Below the pieces are notes generated by a model. That model did no database searches, was not told where the DNA came from, and saw only the letters and a list, made by a program, of their open reading frames with translations. Of a stretch of 64,000 bases of DNA, positions 18,376-60,159 are shown in pieces. Position 1 is the first letter of the stretch, and each line of letters starts with the position of its first letter. This DNA comes from Sphingosinicella sp. LHD-64 (GTDB lineage: Bacteria; Pseudomonadota; Alphaproteobacteria; Sphingomonadales; Sphingomonadaceae): NCBI RefSeq assembly GCF_031157375.1, contig NZ_JAVIFV010000003.1:434001-498000 (forward strand). The letters run 5' to 3'. The position numbers were made by a program, and so were the translations under genes.

Positions 18376-18993
18376 ATGTTCCTGCCCCTCATCGCGACGG
18401 CCGCGCTGGCGGCACTCCAGGCGGCCGAATGCCCCGATCCGGCGAGCGCCCCGGGCGCGACCTGGCGCGGGCGCGCGACCGAGGAGGACCGGCACCGCCT
18501 GCACGACTGGCGCGACGCCTGGACCGACGGGCTTGCCGCCGCCCGCGCCCAAGGCCATCAGGCGGAGATCGCCGCCGAGGGCGCCCTGCTCGATCCCGAC
18601 GCGGCGCAGACCGAGCCGGCGCCGCCGCCCGGCGACTATGCCTGCCGCACCTTCAAGCTCGGCAGCCGCGCGCCCGGCGGCCTCGCCTATGTCGCCTATC
18701 CCGCCTACACCTGCCGGATCACCGCCGATGCGAGCGGCAATGCGCTGGGCTTCACCAAGATCGACGGATCGCAGCGGCCGATCGGCCTCATCTATCCCGA
18801 CAACGACCTGCGCCTCGTCTTCCTCGGCACGATGCAGCTTGGCGACGAGGCGCGCGCCTACCAATATGGCATCGACGGGGAGCGCGACATGATCGGCTTC
18901 GTCGAGCGCGTCGGCGCCAATCGCTGGCGCCTTGTCCTGCCTCGCCCGAACTACGAATCCCAGATCGACGTGATCGAGCTCACGCCCCGCTGA
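18376..18993 (+). CDS. DUF4893 family secreted protein
   Basis: Product of 205 residues with a short signal peptide (MFLPLIATAALAALQAAE). It carries family hallmarks: TEEDRHRLHDWRDAW, PPGDYACRTFKLG, YPAYTCRI, GSQRPIGLIYPDNDLRLVFL and a C-terminus rich in conserved charged residues (QIDVIELTPR). The family is known mainly from sphingomonads and has no established function. Met at 18376 is chosen over 18316 because it begins the signal peptide. It is 14 bp upstream of the M20 amidohydrolase and likely in one operon with it. Confidence 0.8.
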   Translation: MFLPLIATAALAALQAAECPDPASAPGATWRGRATEEDRHRLHDWRDAWTDGLAAARAQGHQAEIAAEGALLDPDAAQTEPAPPPGDYACRTFKLGSRAPGGLAYVAYPAYTCRITADASGNALGFTKIDGSQRPIGLIYPDNDLRLVFLGTMQLGDEARAYQYGIDGERDMIGFVERVGANRWRLVLPRPNYESQIDVIELTPR

Positions 18994-19007
18994 GAGGACC
19001 TTCTACA

Positions 19008-20327
19008 ATGCGACGCAAATTCCTCGCGGCCATGCTATTGGCCACGGCCATGGCCAGCCCCGCACCTGCCCAGGACCTCCGCCAGGCGATCCGCCAGGAC
19101 ATGCCGCAGCTGCTCGAACTCTATCGCGATCTCCACGCCAATCCCGAGCTCTCGATGCAGGAGACGCGCTCGGCCGGCCTGATGGCCGATGCGGCGCGCG
19201 AGCTGGGATTCACCGTCACCACCGGCGTCGGCGGCACCGGCGTCGTCGCGGTGCTGGAGAACGGCCCCGGCCCGGTGCTGATGCTGCGCGCCGACATGGA
19301 CGCGCTGCCGGTCGAGGAGCAGACCGGCCTGCCCTTCGCGAGCCGCGCCCGCGGCACGACCCGCGAGGGCCTCGCCACCGCGATCATGCACGCCTGCGGC
19401 CACGACACCCACATGGCCGCGTGGGTCGGCACCGCGCGCCGCCTCGTCGCGCTCAGGAGCCAGTGGTCCGGCACGCTGGTGATGATCGCCCAGCCCGGCG
19501 AGGAGACCAGCCAGGGCGCCAAGGCGATGCTGGAGGACGGCCTCTTCACCCGCTTCCCCAAGCCGACCCACGCCATCGCCTTCCACGATTCGGCGACGCT
19601 TCCCGCGGGCATGATCGGCTATTCGGACGGGCCCGCGCTCGCCAATGTCGATTCGGTCGACATGACCGTCTTCGGTGTCGGCGGCCACGGCGCCGCGCCG
19701 CACACGACGCGCGACCCGATCGTGCTCGCCAGCCGCATCGTCACGTCGCTCCAGACCCTGGTCAGCCGCGAGCTCGATCCGCTCGACAGCGCGGTCGTCA
19801 CCGTCGGCAGCTTCCAGGCCGGGACCAAGCACAACATCATTTCGGACGAGGCGCGGCTGCTGATCACCGTGCGCAGCTACACGCCCGAGATCCGTCGACA
19901 GCTGCTCGACGGCATCGCCCGCATCGCGCGCGGCGAAGCGATCGCGGCCGGCGTACCGGAAGACCGGATGCCGCGCGTCACCGTCCGCGAGGCGGAAGCC
20001 ACGCCGGCGACGGTCAATTCGGACGACCTCACCCGTGCCACGGCCGAGCGGTTCCGGACCCATTTCGGCGCCGAGCGCGTCCGCCAGGTTCGCCCGGTCA
20101 TGGCCGGCGAGGATTTCGGCCGCTACCGCATCGCCGAGCCCGGCCTGCAAAGCCTGATGTTCTGGGTCGGCGGCGTGCCGCAGGCGCGCTGGGATGCGGC
20201 GCAGCGCGACGGCACCGTCCTGCCCTCGCTGCACAGCCCCTTCTGGGCGCCAGAGCCAGATCCCACCATCTCGACCGCGGTCGAGGCGATGACCGTCGCG
20301 GCGCTTGGCGTGCTGGGCCGGCAGTAG
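19008..20327 (+). CDS. Secreted M20 family amidohydrolase/carboxypeptidase
   Basis: Zinc-dependent amidohydrolase of 439 residues of the hippurate/IAA-amino-acid hydrolase group, exported by an N-terminal signal peptide (FLAAMLLATAMASPAPAQ). Metal-ligand motifs are visible: LRADMDALPVEEQTGLPF, HACGHDTHMA, PGEETSQGA and, near the C-terminus, MAGEDFGRY with LHSPFW. The dimerisation lid begins around GVGGHGAAPH. Likely substrates are N-acyl amino acids or small peptides in the periplasm. GAGAGGACC upstream supports the ATG at 19008. It converges on msrA. Confidence 0.92.
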   Translation: MRRKFLAAMLLATAMASPAPAQDLRQAIRQDMPQLLELYRDLHANPELSMQETRSAGLMADAARELGFTVTTGVGGTGVVAVLENGPGPVLMLRADMDALPVEEQTGLPFASRARGTTREGLATAIMHACGHDTHMAAWVGTARRLVALRSQWSGTLVMIAQPGEETSQGAKAMLEDGLFTRFPKPTHAIAFHDSATLPAGMIGYSDGPALANVDSVDMTVFGVGGHGAAPHTTRDPIVLASRIVTSLQTLVSRELDPLDSAVVTVGSFQAGTKHNIISDEARLLITVRSYTPEIRRQLLDGIARIARGEAIAAGVPEDRMPRVTVREAEATPATVNSDDLTRATAERFRTHFGAERVRQVRPVMAGEDFGRYRIAEPGLQSLMFWVGGVPQARWDAAQRDGTVLPSLHSPFWAPEPDPTISTAVEAMTVAALGVLGRQ

Positions 20328-22812: not shown

Positions 22813-25743
22813 TCAGGCGTGCATTGCAGCAGAAACGACGGATCTTTCAAACCGGCTCCCGACCCGTGCGAGGCCGTCGCCGGGCACGAGGAAGGAGGGG
22901 AGATCGCATTCGGCGTGGAAGCGCAGCAGCTGGTAGGCGATTCCCCCGAGGCCGCCGAGCAGGCCCGGCACGAACGCGTCGCGCAGCATGCCGCAGCTCG
23001 GGCCGTGATCCTCGAGCCCGGTCACGATCGCGGCCTCGAGGCCTGCACGCGACATGCCTGGCGGCCCTTCGCCGAGTCGAATGGCATGATCGAGCAATTC
23101 CCACGCGCCGACGTCGCCATGGCAGGCGCAATGGTTCCAGCCCAGCCCCATCCGAAGGGTCGCTGCGGCGGCCCGCCGCAGCGCCAGCCGTGTCCCCGGA
23201 TCCGCCAGGTCCGGATCGAGATCGAGCCGGGCAAGGCCGATGCCGACCGCGCCATGACACCACGCGGCAGCGGACCTGGGGCCGAGCCCGCGCAGGTCGA
23301 TCCAGTTCTGCTCCTCCTGATCGAACAGCGAGTCCTCGAAGGCCAGCGCGGCGGCCGCGGTCCGGCGATGGCGCTCGTCCCCGGTCACATGGGCGAGCCG
23401 CGCGAGCGCCCAGCCGACGCCGCTCACGCCATGCGCGAATCCGCCCAGCCCTTCCGGCCAGTCGCGATGCGTCCATCGCACGGTCGCGCCCCGCAGATCC
23501 GCCTGCCGGCACAGACGATCGCCCAGTTCGGCGGCGATCGCCACGAAGTCTGCATCGCCGGTCCGCTCGGCCAGCAGAAGCAGCGGCGGGATCGCCCCCG
23601 CCGGCCCGGAGAGGACGTCCGGTGCGTCGTCGTTGGTTAGTGTCTGGGGTATCCGGCGCGCCATCGCGGCGGCGCGCGAAACCTGGCCGTCCACACCGAG
23701 GCAGTCGAGCACGAGCCGCACCCAGACCTGACCGGCAAGCCCCATATAGGCGCCAGGTGCGGGCGGCCGCATTTCCGGGCCGCGGCCCGTCAGCTCCGCC
23801 TGCTTCGCCTCGGCGAGATCGAGCGTGCGAAGCAGGGCATCACGCAGCGGCGCGATGCCGGCGACGGGATCGGCCCGGCCCGCGTCCGTTTCCCGGCAAT
23901 AGGCGGCGGCGAGAAGGGCGACGCCCGAAATACCGCCATAAAGGTCGGGATCGAGCGGTTGGACCGACCAGCCGGCCGGCGTCAGCATAGGGGCGATCCA
24001 GGTCACGGTGCCGTCATGCCCGCGGATCGCGGTCTCCACGAAGCGCCCGGCGATCGCCGCCGCCTGCGCGCGCCGGCGGGCATCGAGATCGCTGCTGCGC
24101 ACCACGTCCGGCCAGCGCCGCTCGCCGGCAGAACTCCAGCCGTCGCTGACATAGGCGCAGACCAGGGCCGACCGCACATAGTTGCGCTCCAGCGTGAGGT
24201 CGGCACCGCGCCAGTCCTGCCATGCGGCATCGACGAGATTTGCCGACTCGCCCCACGTCGTTCCGCCCGGCCCGTCGAACCGGCCTTCGTCGGCAATGGC
24301 AGAGAAATAGGGCACGTCGCCGGCGAGCATGTCCTCGATCTCCGCAGCGATCACGGCCGGATCGCCCGGCGCGGTGGAGACGTTGCCGGCCATGCGGGCA
24401 AGCAGATCGTGGGCCGTTTCCCGAGCTTTCGTTTCATCGTTCAGCGATACCGGATGCCAGAGCATGCGCAGGATCTGGGCATAGACTTCGGTGTTGCGCA
24501 GCACGGCGCGGACGCGGCAGGATTCGAATCGGCCGAGGGCGCTCCGCAGCACGCCGCGCCCGTCGAGCCGCCGCAGCAGGGCCGACATCTCGTCGAAACC
24601 GGCCAGCACGTCCGGCCAATGGTCGGCCAGGACCGGTCGGGGCGCCGGATGGTTCTGCGCGGCCGGAGCCTCGACCTGGCGCTCGCCCAGCCGGGCCTCA
24701 TCGGTGCCGGCGCCGATGATCGTGGGGATCGTCATCATCGGCTGCTGGCCGGGCAGAGCGCCGATTCCCGACGCATCGACCCCGCGCCACACCAGCCCCT
24801 GACCGCGGCTCGGCAGCAGCCCGATGGCGAGCACGGTCCCGCGCACGAACTGGATGGCGATGTCGGTGGCGTCGCCGTAACCGGACGGAAACGGATCGAT
24901 CCGGGGCGTGAACAAGGTTTCGCAATCGATGACCGATGGCCGCGCGCCATGGGCGATCAGATTTTCGGCGTGGAGATCGCTGCCGCCGAGCAGCCGCATC
25001 AGCGCCAGCCACTGCCCGATGCCGACATAGAAGCGCGCAAGCTCAGCCGCATCGGCGGCATGGACATGGGGCACGAATTCGGCCCAGCCATAGCCGTCGC
25101 CGGGGGTCACACGCGGCACATGGATCGGCAGCGTCCGGCCGACGTCCTGCCGCAGCCAATCGATGAAGCCGGCGAGCGCCACATCGATCGCGACCGAGCG
25201 CGGCTTGTAGACGATCCGGCCCCGCGCGCAGTGGGCGATCGCGACGGTATGCCCGCCACCATGCGTGTCGCCGGCACCGAAGCGAAGCTCCGTCAGCGTG
25301 CCCGGATCACCGCCGCACAGTGGCGCGAGCCGATCGCGATCCGCGGTCCAGCGGCGCGCGAAATCCAGCGCCGCGCCCGCATGATTGTCCATGACCCGCG
25401 CGATTCGTCGCGAGAGAGCTGGATAATGTCTTCCAAGGTCCGACCAAAAGGCCGGCCGGGCCGTGAGATCGAGAAAATGCCGCCAGCGGGCTTCGGGGCT
25501 GTCACCCTGTAGCCGCCCCTCGACCCGTGCCGCATTGAGTTCGACCAGCAGCAGCCGGGTGAGCTTGCGGAGCAGCGATCGATCGAGCGCGACGCTCCAG
25601 CCGGCCAGGACGGCATCGGCTTCGCCCGCCCCGAGATTGGGAAGGCGCGAAAGCTGGGCTGCCAGCCGCGCCTTGGCCGGCGCGGTCAGGCAACCCAGCG
25701 AGGCTTGAAAGCTTTCTGCGTCTGCGTCTGACGCTTCGGTCAA
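22813..25743 (-). CDS. lanM: Class II lanthipeptide synthetase LanM
   Basis: Bifunctional enzyme of 976 residues that phosphorylates and dehydrates Ser/Thr in a precursor peptide and then couples them to Cys as lanthionines. The N-terminal dehydratase (DUF4135) shows IVYKPRS (about residue 178), GGSDLHAENLIAHG, VIDCETLF and NTEVYAQILRMLWHPVSL. The C-terminal LanC-like cyclase has GISGVALLAAAY, GFAHGVSGVGWALA and the zinc ligands in WCHGAVG (about 828) and CACHGDVG (about 873). All catalytic signatures are intact. It starts at TTG one base after the stop of the precursor gene, which suggests translational coupling; no ATG or GTG is available nearby. Length is normal for LanM. No transporter or leader peptidase gene is adjacent. 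Confidence 0.93.
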   Translation of the reverse strand: MTEASDADAESFQASLGCLTAPAKARLAAQLSRLPNLGAGEADAVLAGWSVALDRSLLRKLTRLLLVELNAARVEGRLQGDSPEARWRHFLDLTARPAFWSDLGRHYPALSRRIARVMDNHAGAALDFARRWTADRDRLAPLCGGDPGTLTELRFGAGDTHGGGHTVAIAHCARGRIVYKPRSVAIDVALAGFIDWLRQDVGRTLPIHVPRVTPGDGYGWAEFVPHVHAADAAELARFYVGIGQWLALMRLLGGSDLHAENLIAHGARPSVIDCETLFTPRIDPFPSGYGDATDIAIQFVRGTVLAIGLLPSRGQGLVWRGVDASGIGALPGQQPMMTIPTIIGAGTDEARLGERQVEAPAAQNHPAPRPVLADHWPDVLAGFDEMSALLRRLDGRGVLRSALGRFESCRVRAVLRNTEVYAQILRMLWHPVSLNDETKARETAHDLLARMAGNVSTAPGDPAVIAAEIEDMLAGDVPYFSAIADEGRFDGPGGTTWGESANLVDAAWQDWRGADLTLERNYVRSALVCAYVSDGWSSAGERRWPDVVRSSDLDARRRAQAAAIAGRFVETAIRGHDGTVTWIAPMLTPAGWSVQPLDPDLYGGISGVALLAAAYCRETDAGRADPVAGIAPLRDALLRTLDLAEAKQAELTGRGPEMRPPAPGAYMGLAGQVWVRLVLDCLGVDGQVSRAAAMARRIPQTLTNDDAPDVLSGPAGAIPPLLLLAERTGDADFVAIAAELGDRLCRQADLRGATVRWTHRDWPEGLGGFAHGVSGVGWALARLAHVTGDERHRRTAAAALAFEDSLFDQEEQNWIDLRGLGPRSAAAWCHGAVGIGLARLDLDPDLADPGTRLALRRAAAATLRMGLGWNHCACHGDVGAWELLDHAIRLGEGPPGMSRAGLEAAIVTGLEDHGPSCGMLRDAFVPGLLGGLGGIAYQLLRFHAECDLPSFLVPGDGLARVGSRFERSVVSAAMHA

Positions 25744-25744
25744 A

Positions 25745-25927
25745 TCAGCAGCAATCGCAGCAAGCCGAGCCCGTGCAGATCGTGCCGCACTGGACCGTCA
25801 GCGCGCGGGCATCGTTGACGATGTCGCCCATCGTCAGTGCGCCGCCGGCGAACAGCGGACCGGCCGGGCTGGTTTCGTCCGCCTGTGAACGCCACTGGGT
25901 GGTGAGGTCGGTAGCTTGCTTCGTCAT
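25745..25927 (-). CDS. lanA: Lanthipeptide precursor peptide LanA, cysteine-rich core
   Basis: Peptide of 60 residues immediately upstream of lanM. The leader is acidic and polar (MTKQATDLTTQWRSQADE...) with a GG at 28-29 that could be a C39-type cleavage site. The C-terminal end carries all six cysteines (47, 51, 56, 57, 59, 60) and ends SACCDCC. Thr44, Thr49, Thr52 and Ser54 are the only Ser/Thr close to them. AGGGAG is well placed before the ATG at 25927. Small size, a Cys-only C-terminus and the position beside LanM make the assignment firm; the cleavage site, ring pattern and activity are unknown. I do not recognise the core from any named lantibiotic. Confidence 0.88.
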   Translation of the reverse strand: MTKQATDLTTQWRSQADETSPAGPLFAGGALTMGDIVNDARALTVQCGTICTGSACCDCC

Positions 25928-26152
25928 GAGATTTACTCCCTAGGCTTTGCTACAGTCACGCCGAGATCACTGGTATTTGTTTTGATCGACCAATGACTCG
26001 ACGCGACCTTTCTAGGGACAGGCTATTCTGAGTCAATTCGATTGCGGTTATTACCGTATCTTACTTTGTCTATTTAAATGATCATATATAATTTGTTATT
26101 TCATTAGGACTTTTATGTAAAATCAACTTACTCAATCCACCAAACAGCTCGC
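25928..26152 (-). promoter_or_regulatory. AT-rich leader/promoter region of the lanthipeptide operon
   Basis: In 26041-26100 I count only 14 G or C in 60 bases, in a window where genes are mostly two-thirds GC. It includes TTTAAATGATCATATATAAT on the plus strand with an embedded TGATCA. No ORF is present. It must contain the lanA promoter, but I could not fix a convincing -35/-10 pair. The base composition suggests acquired DNA or a nucleoid-protein target. Confidence 0.55.
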
Positions 26153-28051
26153 TCAGATCAGATAGTCCGAAGGTGCAAGAAAGGTGACGCCGATCAATGT
26201 GACCTGGCCGCTGCCGAAATCGACGATGCAGTCGTCGCCTACGTAGCGGATGTCGAGATTGCCCTGGAACGCCGCCTCGGTCTGGCGAAGGTCGAGCAGG
26301 TCGTTGTCACCCTCTTCCTGGCCGAAATCGTGGATCACGTCCGCATAGGTGAGCCCCTTGAACACGAAGCGGTCGTTGCCGCCGCCCCCCCAGAGCTCGT
26401 CGAAGCCGAGGCCGCCGTCGATCGTGTCGTTGCCGCCGCGCCCCGCGCCGACCGCCCCATCGCCATATATCCGGTCGTCGCCGTCGCCGCCGGTCAGGAC
26501 GTCGTTGCCGCCGGTCCCGCCCGCCAGGATCATCTCCGCGTCGCCGTAGAGGATATCGTCGCCCTCGCCACCGAACAGCCGGTCGTTCGCGCCGCGGCTG
26601 CCGGCGGCGATCGCAGTCAGGTCGCCATACAGGATGTCGTTGCCGAGCTCGCCCCACAGGCTGTCGCCCTGCCAGCCGCCGATCAGCCGGTCGTCGCCGA
26701 CGCCGCCGTAAAGCGCATCCTCCCCCTTGTCGCCCCAGAGGCGATCGTCGCCGAACCCCCCATAGACGGTATCGGCGCCTGCACCGGCGCGGATCAGGTC
26801 ATCGCCGAACCCGCCGGTGAGCGTCTCGCTCGCGCCGGTGCCGTTGATCGTCTGGCCTTCCGGCATCTCGTCGACCGCGAAGAGCTGGACCTTGATGCCG
26901 CCGTCGAGGCCGTCCTGGCCCTCGTCGGCGTTCCAGGCGATGGCGAACCGGTCGCCGCCGAGGCTCGCGACGCTGGGATCGATCGAGAAATAGGGCGAAT
27001 CGGCATGGACCTGGAATTCCTCGCCGATCCGGCCGCCGGCCGCGTCGAACACCTGGGCGCGGATCGTGATCAGCGGCTGCAGCCCCTCCGGATCCTCGGC
27101 GCCGTTCTGCCAGACCACGACGAAGCGGCCGTCCGACAAGGCGGCGATGTCGGCATTGTGTTGATCGGCGGCGATCTGGTCGTGGACGGTGAAGGCTTCG
27201 CCGAGCGCGGCGCCGTCCGGCGCGAAGAGGCGCGCCTTCACGTCGGCGCCGGGATCGTTGAATGCATCCTCGCCGAACGCGCCTTCCGTCCAGACCACGA
27301 CGAAATTGCCGTTGGAGAGGCGGGTGATGGTGGGATCGGGCCGCCCGCCCGCGCCCTCGCCGATCTCGAAGATCGTGCCGCCGAGGCCGTTCTTCTGCAT
27401 GATCTGGCCGTAGAAGGCCGCCTCCGCGCCCCCGAACGCCTCCTCCTCGCTGCGATAGCCGTGCCAGGCGACGACGAAGCTGGTGTCGGAGAGGACAGCG
27501 AGGCCCTTGGCGCCGGGCATGCCTTCATAGCCGAAGTCGAAGGCCGCGCGGACCGAGCTGCCGTCAGGCGAGCGGACCTCGCCCTCGCCGACATATTCGC
27601 CGCTCCACACCGTGACCACGCTGCCGTCGGCGAAGGAGGCGCTTTCCGGGTTCCAGTGATAATAGTCGTAATCGGTGAGATGTTCGGGGCCGGTCCGGAC
27701 GCCGTTCGCATCGAGATACTGGGTGTTCACCGACGTACCGGGGAGCTGATTCTCCTCGCCGCTTGAATAGGAGATGGCGAAGCTGCCGTCCGGGCGCGCG
27801 GCAACGGTCGGGCTCCACTGCTGATCCTGGGTGATCGTGTTCACCGTGAATTCGTCGGCGAGCGCCTGGCCGGGGAGGATGGCGCGCGCCTGGATCTCGA
27901 TGCCGAACCCGGTTTCCTCGTTCGGGCGGAACTGACTGCGCCAGGCGACGACGAAGCCGCCTTCGGGCGTGCCGGCAATGTCGGGCTGGGTCTGGGGCCC
28001 GACGAGGTTGCCGGTGTTGATGACGAATTCGGGGCCGATCCGGACGGGCAT
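26153..28051 (-). CDS. RTX-type calcium-binding secreted protein
   Basis: Product of 632 residues without an N-terminal signal peptide, as expected for type I secretion. Residues 1 to about 400 contain spaced repeats with the core G-x-FVVxW (TPEGGFVVAWRS, SDTSFVVAWHGY, SNGNFVVVWTEG, SDGRFVVVWQNG), probably blades of a beta-propeller-like fold. From about 405 to 560 there are RTX calcium nonapeptides (GGFGDDLIRAGAGAD, GGVGDDRLIGG, GGDGDDRIYGDG, GGGGNDRFVF). The C-terminus is an uncleaved secretion-type tail. No catalytic motif is evident. GGAGGAAC precedes the ATG at 28051. It lies directly upstream of the lanthipeptide genes on the same strand; no type I secretion genes are in the window. Confidence 0.88.
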   Translation of the reverse strand: MPVRIGPEFVINTGNLVGPQTQPDIAGTPEGGFVVAWRSQFRPNEETGFGIEIQARAILPGQALADEFTVNTITQDQQWSPTVAARPDGSFAISYSSGEENQLPGTSVNTQYLDANGVRTGPEHLTDYDYYHWNPESASFADGSVVTVWSGEYVGEGEVRSPDGSSVRAAFDFGYEGMPGAKGLAVLSDTSFVVAWHGYRSEEEAFGGAEAAFYGQIMQKNGLGGTIFEIGEGAGGRPDPTITRLSNGNFVVVWTEGAFGEDAFNDPGADVKARLFAPDGAALGEAFTVHDQIAADQHNADIAALSDGRFVVVWQNGAEDPEGLQPLITIRAQVFDAAGGRIGEEFQVHADSPYFSIDPSVASLGGDRFAIAWNADEGQDGLDGGIKVQLFAVDEMPEGQTINGTGASETLTGGFGDDLIRAGAGADTVYGGFGDDRLWGDKGEDALYGGVGDDRLIGGWQGDSLWGELGNDILYGDLTAIAAGSRGANDRLFGGEGDDILYGDAEMILAGGTGGNDVLTGGDGDDRIYGDGAVGAGRGGNDTIDGGLGFDELWGGGGNDRFVFKGLTYADVIHDFGQEEGDNDLLDLRQTEAAFQGNLDIRYVGDDCIVDFGSGQVTLIGVTFLAPSDYLI

Positions 28052-58356: not shown

Positions 58357-60159
<1,803 letters not shown>

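Follow-up and report, generated by a model that had tools for sequence, protein, structure and literature searches.

The lanA-lanM gene pair on the reverse strand of the window (i.e., the whole 64,000-nucleotide stretch of Sphingosinicella sp. LHD-64 DNA that was analysed) is read here, with high but incomplete confidence that extends to the mechanism proposed below, as a two-gene class II lanthipeptide locus of the DUF6229 family. Its gene content and family membership are clear, its enzyme is intact, and the pairing of the two genes is conserved. Judged from its genes, the locus is very likely to produce a small peptide with closed rings, belonging to a family recognised before. What is special about it is modest: it stands out mainly by its extra cysteines and by its rarity among related bacteria. 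A preliminary description had proposed a class II lanthipeptide locus at this position, and the family models, the intact enzyme and the conserved lanA-lanM pairing all back that assignment.

The LanM synthetase

The lanM gene (22813..25743, reverse strand) starts with TTG, contains no internal stop, and encodes a class II lanthipeptide synthetase of 976 amino acids, identified by TIGR03897, by its DUF4135 and LANC_like domains, and by similarity to LicM2. The TIGR03897 model (lanti_2_LanM) scores 582.5 bits against a cut-off of 304, and the Pfam models PF13575 (DUF4135) and PF05147 (LANC_like) both exceed their cut-offs within the one chain, which unites dehydratase and LanC-like cyclase as in a class II synthetase. 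Alignments of the window enzyme with the closest homologues (L034, L005, L006 and L017) begin at residue 4 on both sides, consistent with translation from the TTG. The best solved relatives are LicM2 (6st5, E 1.5e-69) and CylM (5dzt, E 4.3e-23), both two-domain enzymes like the window LanM, and the window's catalytic and zinc residues align with those of LicM2; the substrates of LicM2 and CylM carry other leaders, not DUF6229.

Comparison with LicM2 and 34 relatives shows that K180, D256, H258, N261, D273, R416, T418, C829, C874 and H875 are all present; we take their catalytic (K, D, H, N, D, R, T) and zinc-binding (C, C, H) roles from work on CylM. A conservation alignment of the window LanM with 34 others (it omits L004, L021, L037 and L041-L045) shows no difference between the window and its relatives at the 11 catalytic and zinc positions checked, apart from T418, which is Thr in 33 and Ser in two of the 35 rows. 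The enzyme also keeps 130 of the 131 columns that are invariant in the other rows, its sole deviation being N533S. This retention argues against decay, and the window LanM looks functional from its sequence, despite its long branch. The earlier claim of a complete LanM with dehydratase motifs and zinc ligands intact thus holds at every checked position.

The DUF6229 precursor

The lanA gene (25745..25927, reverse strand) encodes a 60-residue peptide, MTKQATDLTTQWRSQADETSPAGPLFAGGALTMGDIVNDARALTVQCGTICTGSACCDCC, that is assigned as a DUF6229 precursor by its match to PF19740 and by homologues lying before lanM in 35 of 41 related loci. The PF19740 match (53.9 bits, E 1.7e-14, gathering cut-off 25) covers profile positions 2-62 of 62, and thus the whole profile, and it is the single match to this model across the whole source genome; no NCBIfam model matched the peptide at values up to E 1. 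A Shine-Dalgarno-like AGGGAG (25936..25941, reverse strand) lies 8 nt 5' of the lanA ATG. With the last base of the lanA stop codon at 25745 and the first base of the lanM TTG at 25743, a single base separates the two genes. The open reading frame with its ribosome-binding site and the single-base spacing were therefore described correctly from the start, while two other early impressions require revision. The C-terminus, first called cysteine-only, is cysteine-rich instead (CCDCC), with T44, T49, T52 and S54 among or just before the cysteines. Likewise, the precursor, first called unfamiliar, is a Pfam DUF6229 peptide, and a member of this family was modified by its LanM in work of 2022, as described in the accessible part of PMC9576775. 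Since DUF6229 members have been published as LanM substrates, the window precursor belongs to a family with a known role.

Alignment with 39 open reading frames of relatives places a leader motif, SPAGPLF, at residues 20-26 (25850..25870, reverse strand), where the family consensus is approximately (N/S)PAGPL(F/Y). The same alignment suggests a boundary for the probable core, residues 42-60, ALTVQCGTICTGSACCDCC (25748..25804, reverse strand). Upstream of lanA, an intergenic region (25928..26152, reverse strand), AT-richer by sequence reading and composition, is the presumed promoter site; a promoter scan found no sigma-70 consensus, and terminator-like sites numbered one versus 1.7 in shuffles. 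A foreign base composition of the gene pair was considered and rejected, as the G+C content of lanA and lanM is about that of their surroundings.

Relatives and conservation of the gene pair

A LanM scan of GTDB genomes yielded 41 loci. A phmmer search with the window peptide against their open reading frames of 25-150 codons found 39 frames in 33 loci (E <=0.019), and a profile built from the alignment of these 39 added L014 and L039; the profile contains Streptomyces-type members, and the assignment of these weaker members depends in part on it. Of 29 genomes scanned, 24 nevertheless match PF19740 itself, those of L022 and L039 among them. Taken together, a DUF6229-like gene lies 0-251 bases before lanM in 35 of the 41 loci, with some pairs overlapping slightly by extrapolated starts. 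Six loci have no such peptide: L021, whose contig begins inside lanM and whose genome has a DUF6229 peptide on another contig, and L041-L045, whose LanMs are only 29-35% identical.

A maximum-likelihood tree was computed for 41 LanMs, including L004 and the window but not L021 or L043. It groups the window with 35 loci in one clade, with support of 100/100. Absence of the peptide from relatives that keep LanM had been named in advance as evidence against the locus; the precursor is present upstream in all 35 other members of this 36-row clade. The placement of the window inside the clade is unsure (support 93/85, long branch). By identity, its nearest LanMs are those of Pyxidicoccus (59%; L005 and L034), where gene order is the same and few bases separate the genes. 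Members of the clade come from Myxococcota, the gamma- and betaproteobacteria, Acidobacteriota, Verrucomicrobiota and Actinomycetota, a taxonomic mixture suggestive of horizontal spread. The alignment reveals a core motif common to peptides from Myxococcota, Xanthomonas, Luteimonas, Verrucomicrobiota and Actinomycetota loci.

Two loci deserve separate mention. In Rhizohabitans arisaemae (L015:4068-5908), seven DUF6229 genes (seven PF19740 matches) stand in a row before lanM, and their diverse cores make up a natural combinatorial array. In addition, a record labelled Comamonas sp. KCTC 72670 (L006) groups with Myxococcus in the LanM tree, and may represent a wrong label or a transferred gene.

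Published DUF6229 lanthipeptides

The accessible part of PMC9576775 describes a DUF6229 peptide of Dyella sp. 333MFSha, made with its LanM, that undergoes four dehydrations and forms three rings (T6-C11, C8-S14 and T12-C23, plus Dhb18), and it proposes the name rhodanocins for products of this type. According to the same text, at least two groups of ring pattern exist within the family, the C39 protease LahT150 did not cut the Dyella peptide, and the AspN-cut product had an MIC of 126 uM against Klebsiella pneumoniae, i.e., weak activity on a Gram-negative. In a preprint (PMC11451712, accessible part), DUF6229 is the annotation given to 21 of 27 unique class II precursors from Lysobacter, and the precursors fall into six clusters. 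The view that class II lanthipeptides of sphingomonads are little explored is fair: antiSMASH counts of such clusters exist for Sphingomonas genomes, as seen in the accessible part of PMC9716278, and no characterised sphingomonad product was found among the open-licence literature matches listed.

Like the rhodanocin (LanII) precursor, the window peptide is a DUF6229 precursor paired with LanM, and the rhodanocin core order C-x(n)-C-T-x-S ... C, compared through the ring description in the accessible part of PMC9576775, recurs in the window. The window order, C-x3-C-T-x-S, is similar to that of the rhodanocin subgroup and spaced otherwise, with C-x3-C in place of the C-x2-C that follows from that description. 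By the same comparison, fewer residues separate the ring Thr from the last Cys in the window, six cysteines stand against the three used by the described rhodanocin rings, and, unlike rhodanocin, the window has no Thr between S54 and the terminal CC. The leader W..(N/H)PAGPLF of the Lysobacter and Xanthomonas DUF6229 precursors (L009, L012-L014 and L040; PMC11451712, accessible part) is also present in the window.

The cysteine-rich core

The window core, CGTICTGSACCDCC, has six cysteines, whereas the 52 distinct tails of its relatives have three (9 tails), four (37) or five (6). These counts cover the loci fetched in this analysis, not all public genomes; 64 precursor tails are distinct over the last 62 residues and 52 over the last 20. 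The closest tails to that of the window, RALTVQCGTICTGSACCDCC, are those of three Xanthomonas loci (L012-L014), AAVTEQCGTICTGSATFQCC, which are identical to it over Q46-A55 and end in TFQCC versus CCDCC in the window. The full motif C(G/S)(T/S)(x)C(T/S)xSxTxxCC occurs in 20 of the 64 precursor tails, and the window keeps the core motif up to S54. In the CGTxC(T/S)GSxTxxCC group, a Thr lies between S54 and the terminal CC; the window has C56 at this position, and a further Cys at 57. With the motif Thr replaced by Cys, the window product differs from those of the relatives compared. The only Ser and Thr in residues 42-60 are T44, T49, T52 and S54, four against six cysteines. Four of the 52 tails likewise have more Cys than Ser/Thr (five versus four), so an excess of cysteine has precedent.

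In the proposed mechanism, LanM would recognise the leader through the conserved W12 and the SPAGPLF region, and its DUF4135 domain would phosphorylate, then eliminate, Ser/Thr residues among T44, T49, T52 and S54. The zinc-type LanC domain would then add cysteines to form probably three, and no more than four, (methyl)lanthionine rings. On the model of rhodanocin, the likely rings would be T44 or T49-C51, C47-S54, and T52-C59 or C60; given the C-x3-C spacing of the window against the C-x2-C of rhodanocin, the transfer of rings is by analogy only. If only residues 42-60 are modified, at least two cysteines would be left as thiols, in a disulfide or in a metal site; if T32 is dehydrated too, at least one would be left outside lanthionines.

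These surplus cysteines invite a tentative reading, possible although on balance unlikely, in which the product is a hybrid, its CGTICTGS part closed by lanthionines and its CCDCC tail held by a disulfide or binding metal, with a role unlike that of its relatives. Six cysteines occur in none of the 52 distinct tails and outnumber the four Ser/Thr of the last 20 residues, the LanM has not decayed, and free Cys has been reported in a modified class II peptide, LanII-2B (accessible part of PMC9576775). Conversely, the excess of Cys is not unique, given the four precedents above, and the CCDCC tail is represented by a single sequence. Somewhat more doubtful still is the broader suggestion of a DUF6229 sub-branch in which a C-terminal dehydration site is replaced by Cys, the middle of the peptide would be closed by thioethers, the CCDCC tail would form a disulfide or bind metal, and a general transporter would serve for export.

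Rarity and origin

DUF6229 exceeds its cut-off in one of 298 genomes of the window's taxonomic family, this being the window's own genome; a second genome of the family (L003, G233) has a partial DUF6229-like match of 20.9 bits, below the cut-off of 25, over profile positions 20-45. With the window's own genome counted in each, the figures are one of 289 for its class and three of 398 for its phylum, and the family of Lysobacter sp. yr284 has DUF6229 in 17 of 247 genomes. LanM matches at E 1e-30 occur in two of the 298 family genomes, the other one being 33% identical, and at E 1e-20 in two of 26 genus genomes, the other one being a separate LanC-like gene. In a genome of the same genus (L111:123-2469, G1213), a HopA1-family gene (PF17914, E 1.1e-33) is directly followed by a LanC-like gene (PF05147, E 7.1e-46), an arrangement that, as we take it, recalls class V lanthipeptide loci.

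The aldo/keto reductase gene behind lanM, by comparison, has relatives in 21 of the 26 genus genomes. Nine stretches of 12-20 kb round this gene, from nine of the 20 other genomes with such a relative, were sampled for synteny, and tblastn found neither LanM nor the neighbouring RTX gene in them (the 60-residue peptide was not a query). The hydrolase gene at 18990-20327 of the window, which we take to encode an amidohydrolase, occurs in six of the nine, MsrA (Pfam) in three, and both in three. The gene pair therefore sits at the edge of a partly conserved block, and is most simply an acquired accessory. A mobile origin was considered and rejected: no plasmid match to the lanA peptide was found, the 17 plasmid records with LanM matches are all below 60% identity, and a scan with six short patterns found no viral contig.

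Export and neighbouring genes

Of the 41 loci, 16 have a homologous ABC exporter immediately after lanM (L005, L006, L007, L012-L015, L017-L021, L033, L034, L036 and L037, with L036 cut by a contig end), including Pyxidicoccus L005 and L034 and Xanthomonas L012-L014. Five of these exporters (L005, L006, L012, L017 and L018) were scanned with Pfam and have ABC_tran but no C39 domain, and no homologous exporter was found in the Streptomyces-type loci. The LanM tree groups 17 loci with the window. Twelve of them have the exporter and three (L008, L009 and L040) lack it; for the other two, L010 and L011, approximately 1 kb of sequence follows lanM, which is not enough for a judgement, and L010 has an ABC match upstream of its peptide instead. 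Unlike the Xanthomonas and Pyxidicoccus loci, and like Lysobacter L009 and L040, the window locus has none: no ABC exporter or C39 protease was seen there, and the sole window matches to the relatives' exporter are partial and about 30% identical (58789-60099). Leader removal and export would thus have to use proteins encoded elsewhere. In the Pyxidicoccus locus L005, the exporter is followed by a FAD-binding, berberine-bridge-like oxidase (L005:10772-12214), with frames of like size and place in L006, L015 and L017; an oxidase of this type may be a further tailoring enzyme.

The source genome has other ABC transporters, the best being 40% identical over part of its length, and one strong C39 match (contig C3, 774523-774918), a second match on C4 being weak. 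The strong match sits in a 728-residue ABC exporter beside an HlyD-family protein (Pfam) and a 288-residue protein whose start looks like a GG-type leader. This cluster (L145:2278-7645; G000 contig C3, approximately 772.8-778.1 kb) looks self-contained, and since the exporter has HlyD and GG-leader neighbours of its own, a link to the window peptide is not indicated and it was set aside as a partner of lanA; a further point against it is that LahT150, a C39 protease, left the related Dyella peptide uncut (PMC9576775).

Upstream of lanA, on the same strand (26153-28051, reverse), lies a gene for a 632-residue RTX calcium-binding repeat protein (PF00353). It was rejected as part of the operon, as no recurring flank family holding relatives of this gene was found in the flanks of the lanM relatives. 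The downstream aldo/keto reductase was similarly rejected, its matches in L018, L019 and L033 being 30-31% identical and kilobases beyond lanM; flank-family comparison also links L007 to this aldo/keto group.

The missing exporter, set against its presence in many relatives and most of those that group with the window, would suit an improbable account in which a transferred locus is decaying, its exporter lost and its core drifting, such that the host neither makes nor exports a mature peptide. Replacement of the motif Thr and the rarity of DUF6229 and LanM in the family and genus point the same way, yet the LanM is intact, the Shine-Dalgarno-like site and tight spacing are preserved, and the same test finds no exporter of this kind in many other loci, the two from Lysobacter for example. 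Finally, the notion that lanA is a chance frame and that the true LanM substrate lies elsewhere, in favour of which no point was found, is hardly credible and was rejected, given the strength of the genome's single PF19740 match and the like gene upstream of lanM in most relatives.

Significance

Nothing at this DUF6229 lanthipeptide locus overturns current knowledge, and what is noteworthy is one change in the core. The locus extends a recently recognised lanthipeptide precursor family to a bacterial group where it is very rare. Its core, with more cysteines than residues to dehydrate, is a natural variant on which the choice of rings by a LanM can be examined. As one DUF6229 peptide is weakly active against a Gram-negative (accessible part of PMC9576775), such variants, including the window peptide with whatever antibacterial role it may have, are worth expressing.
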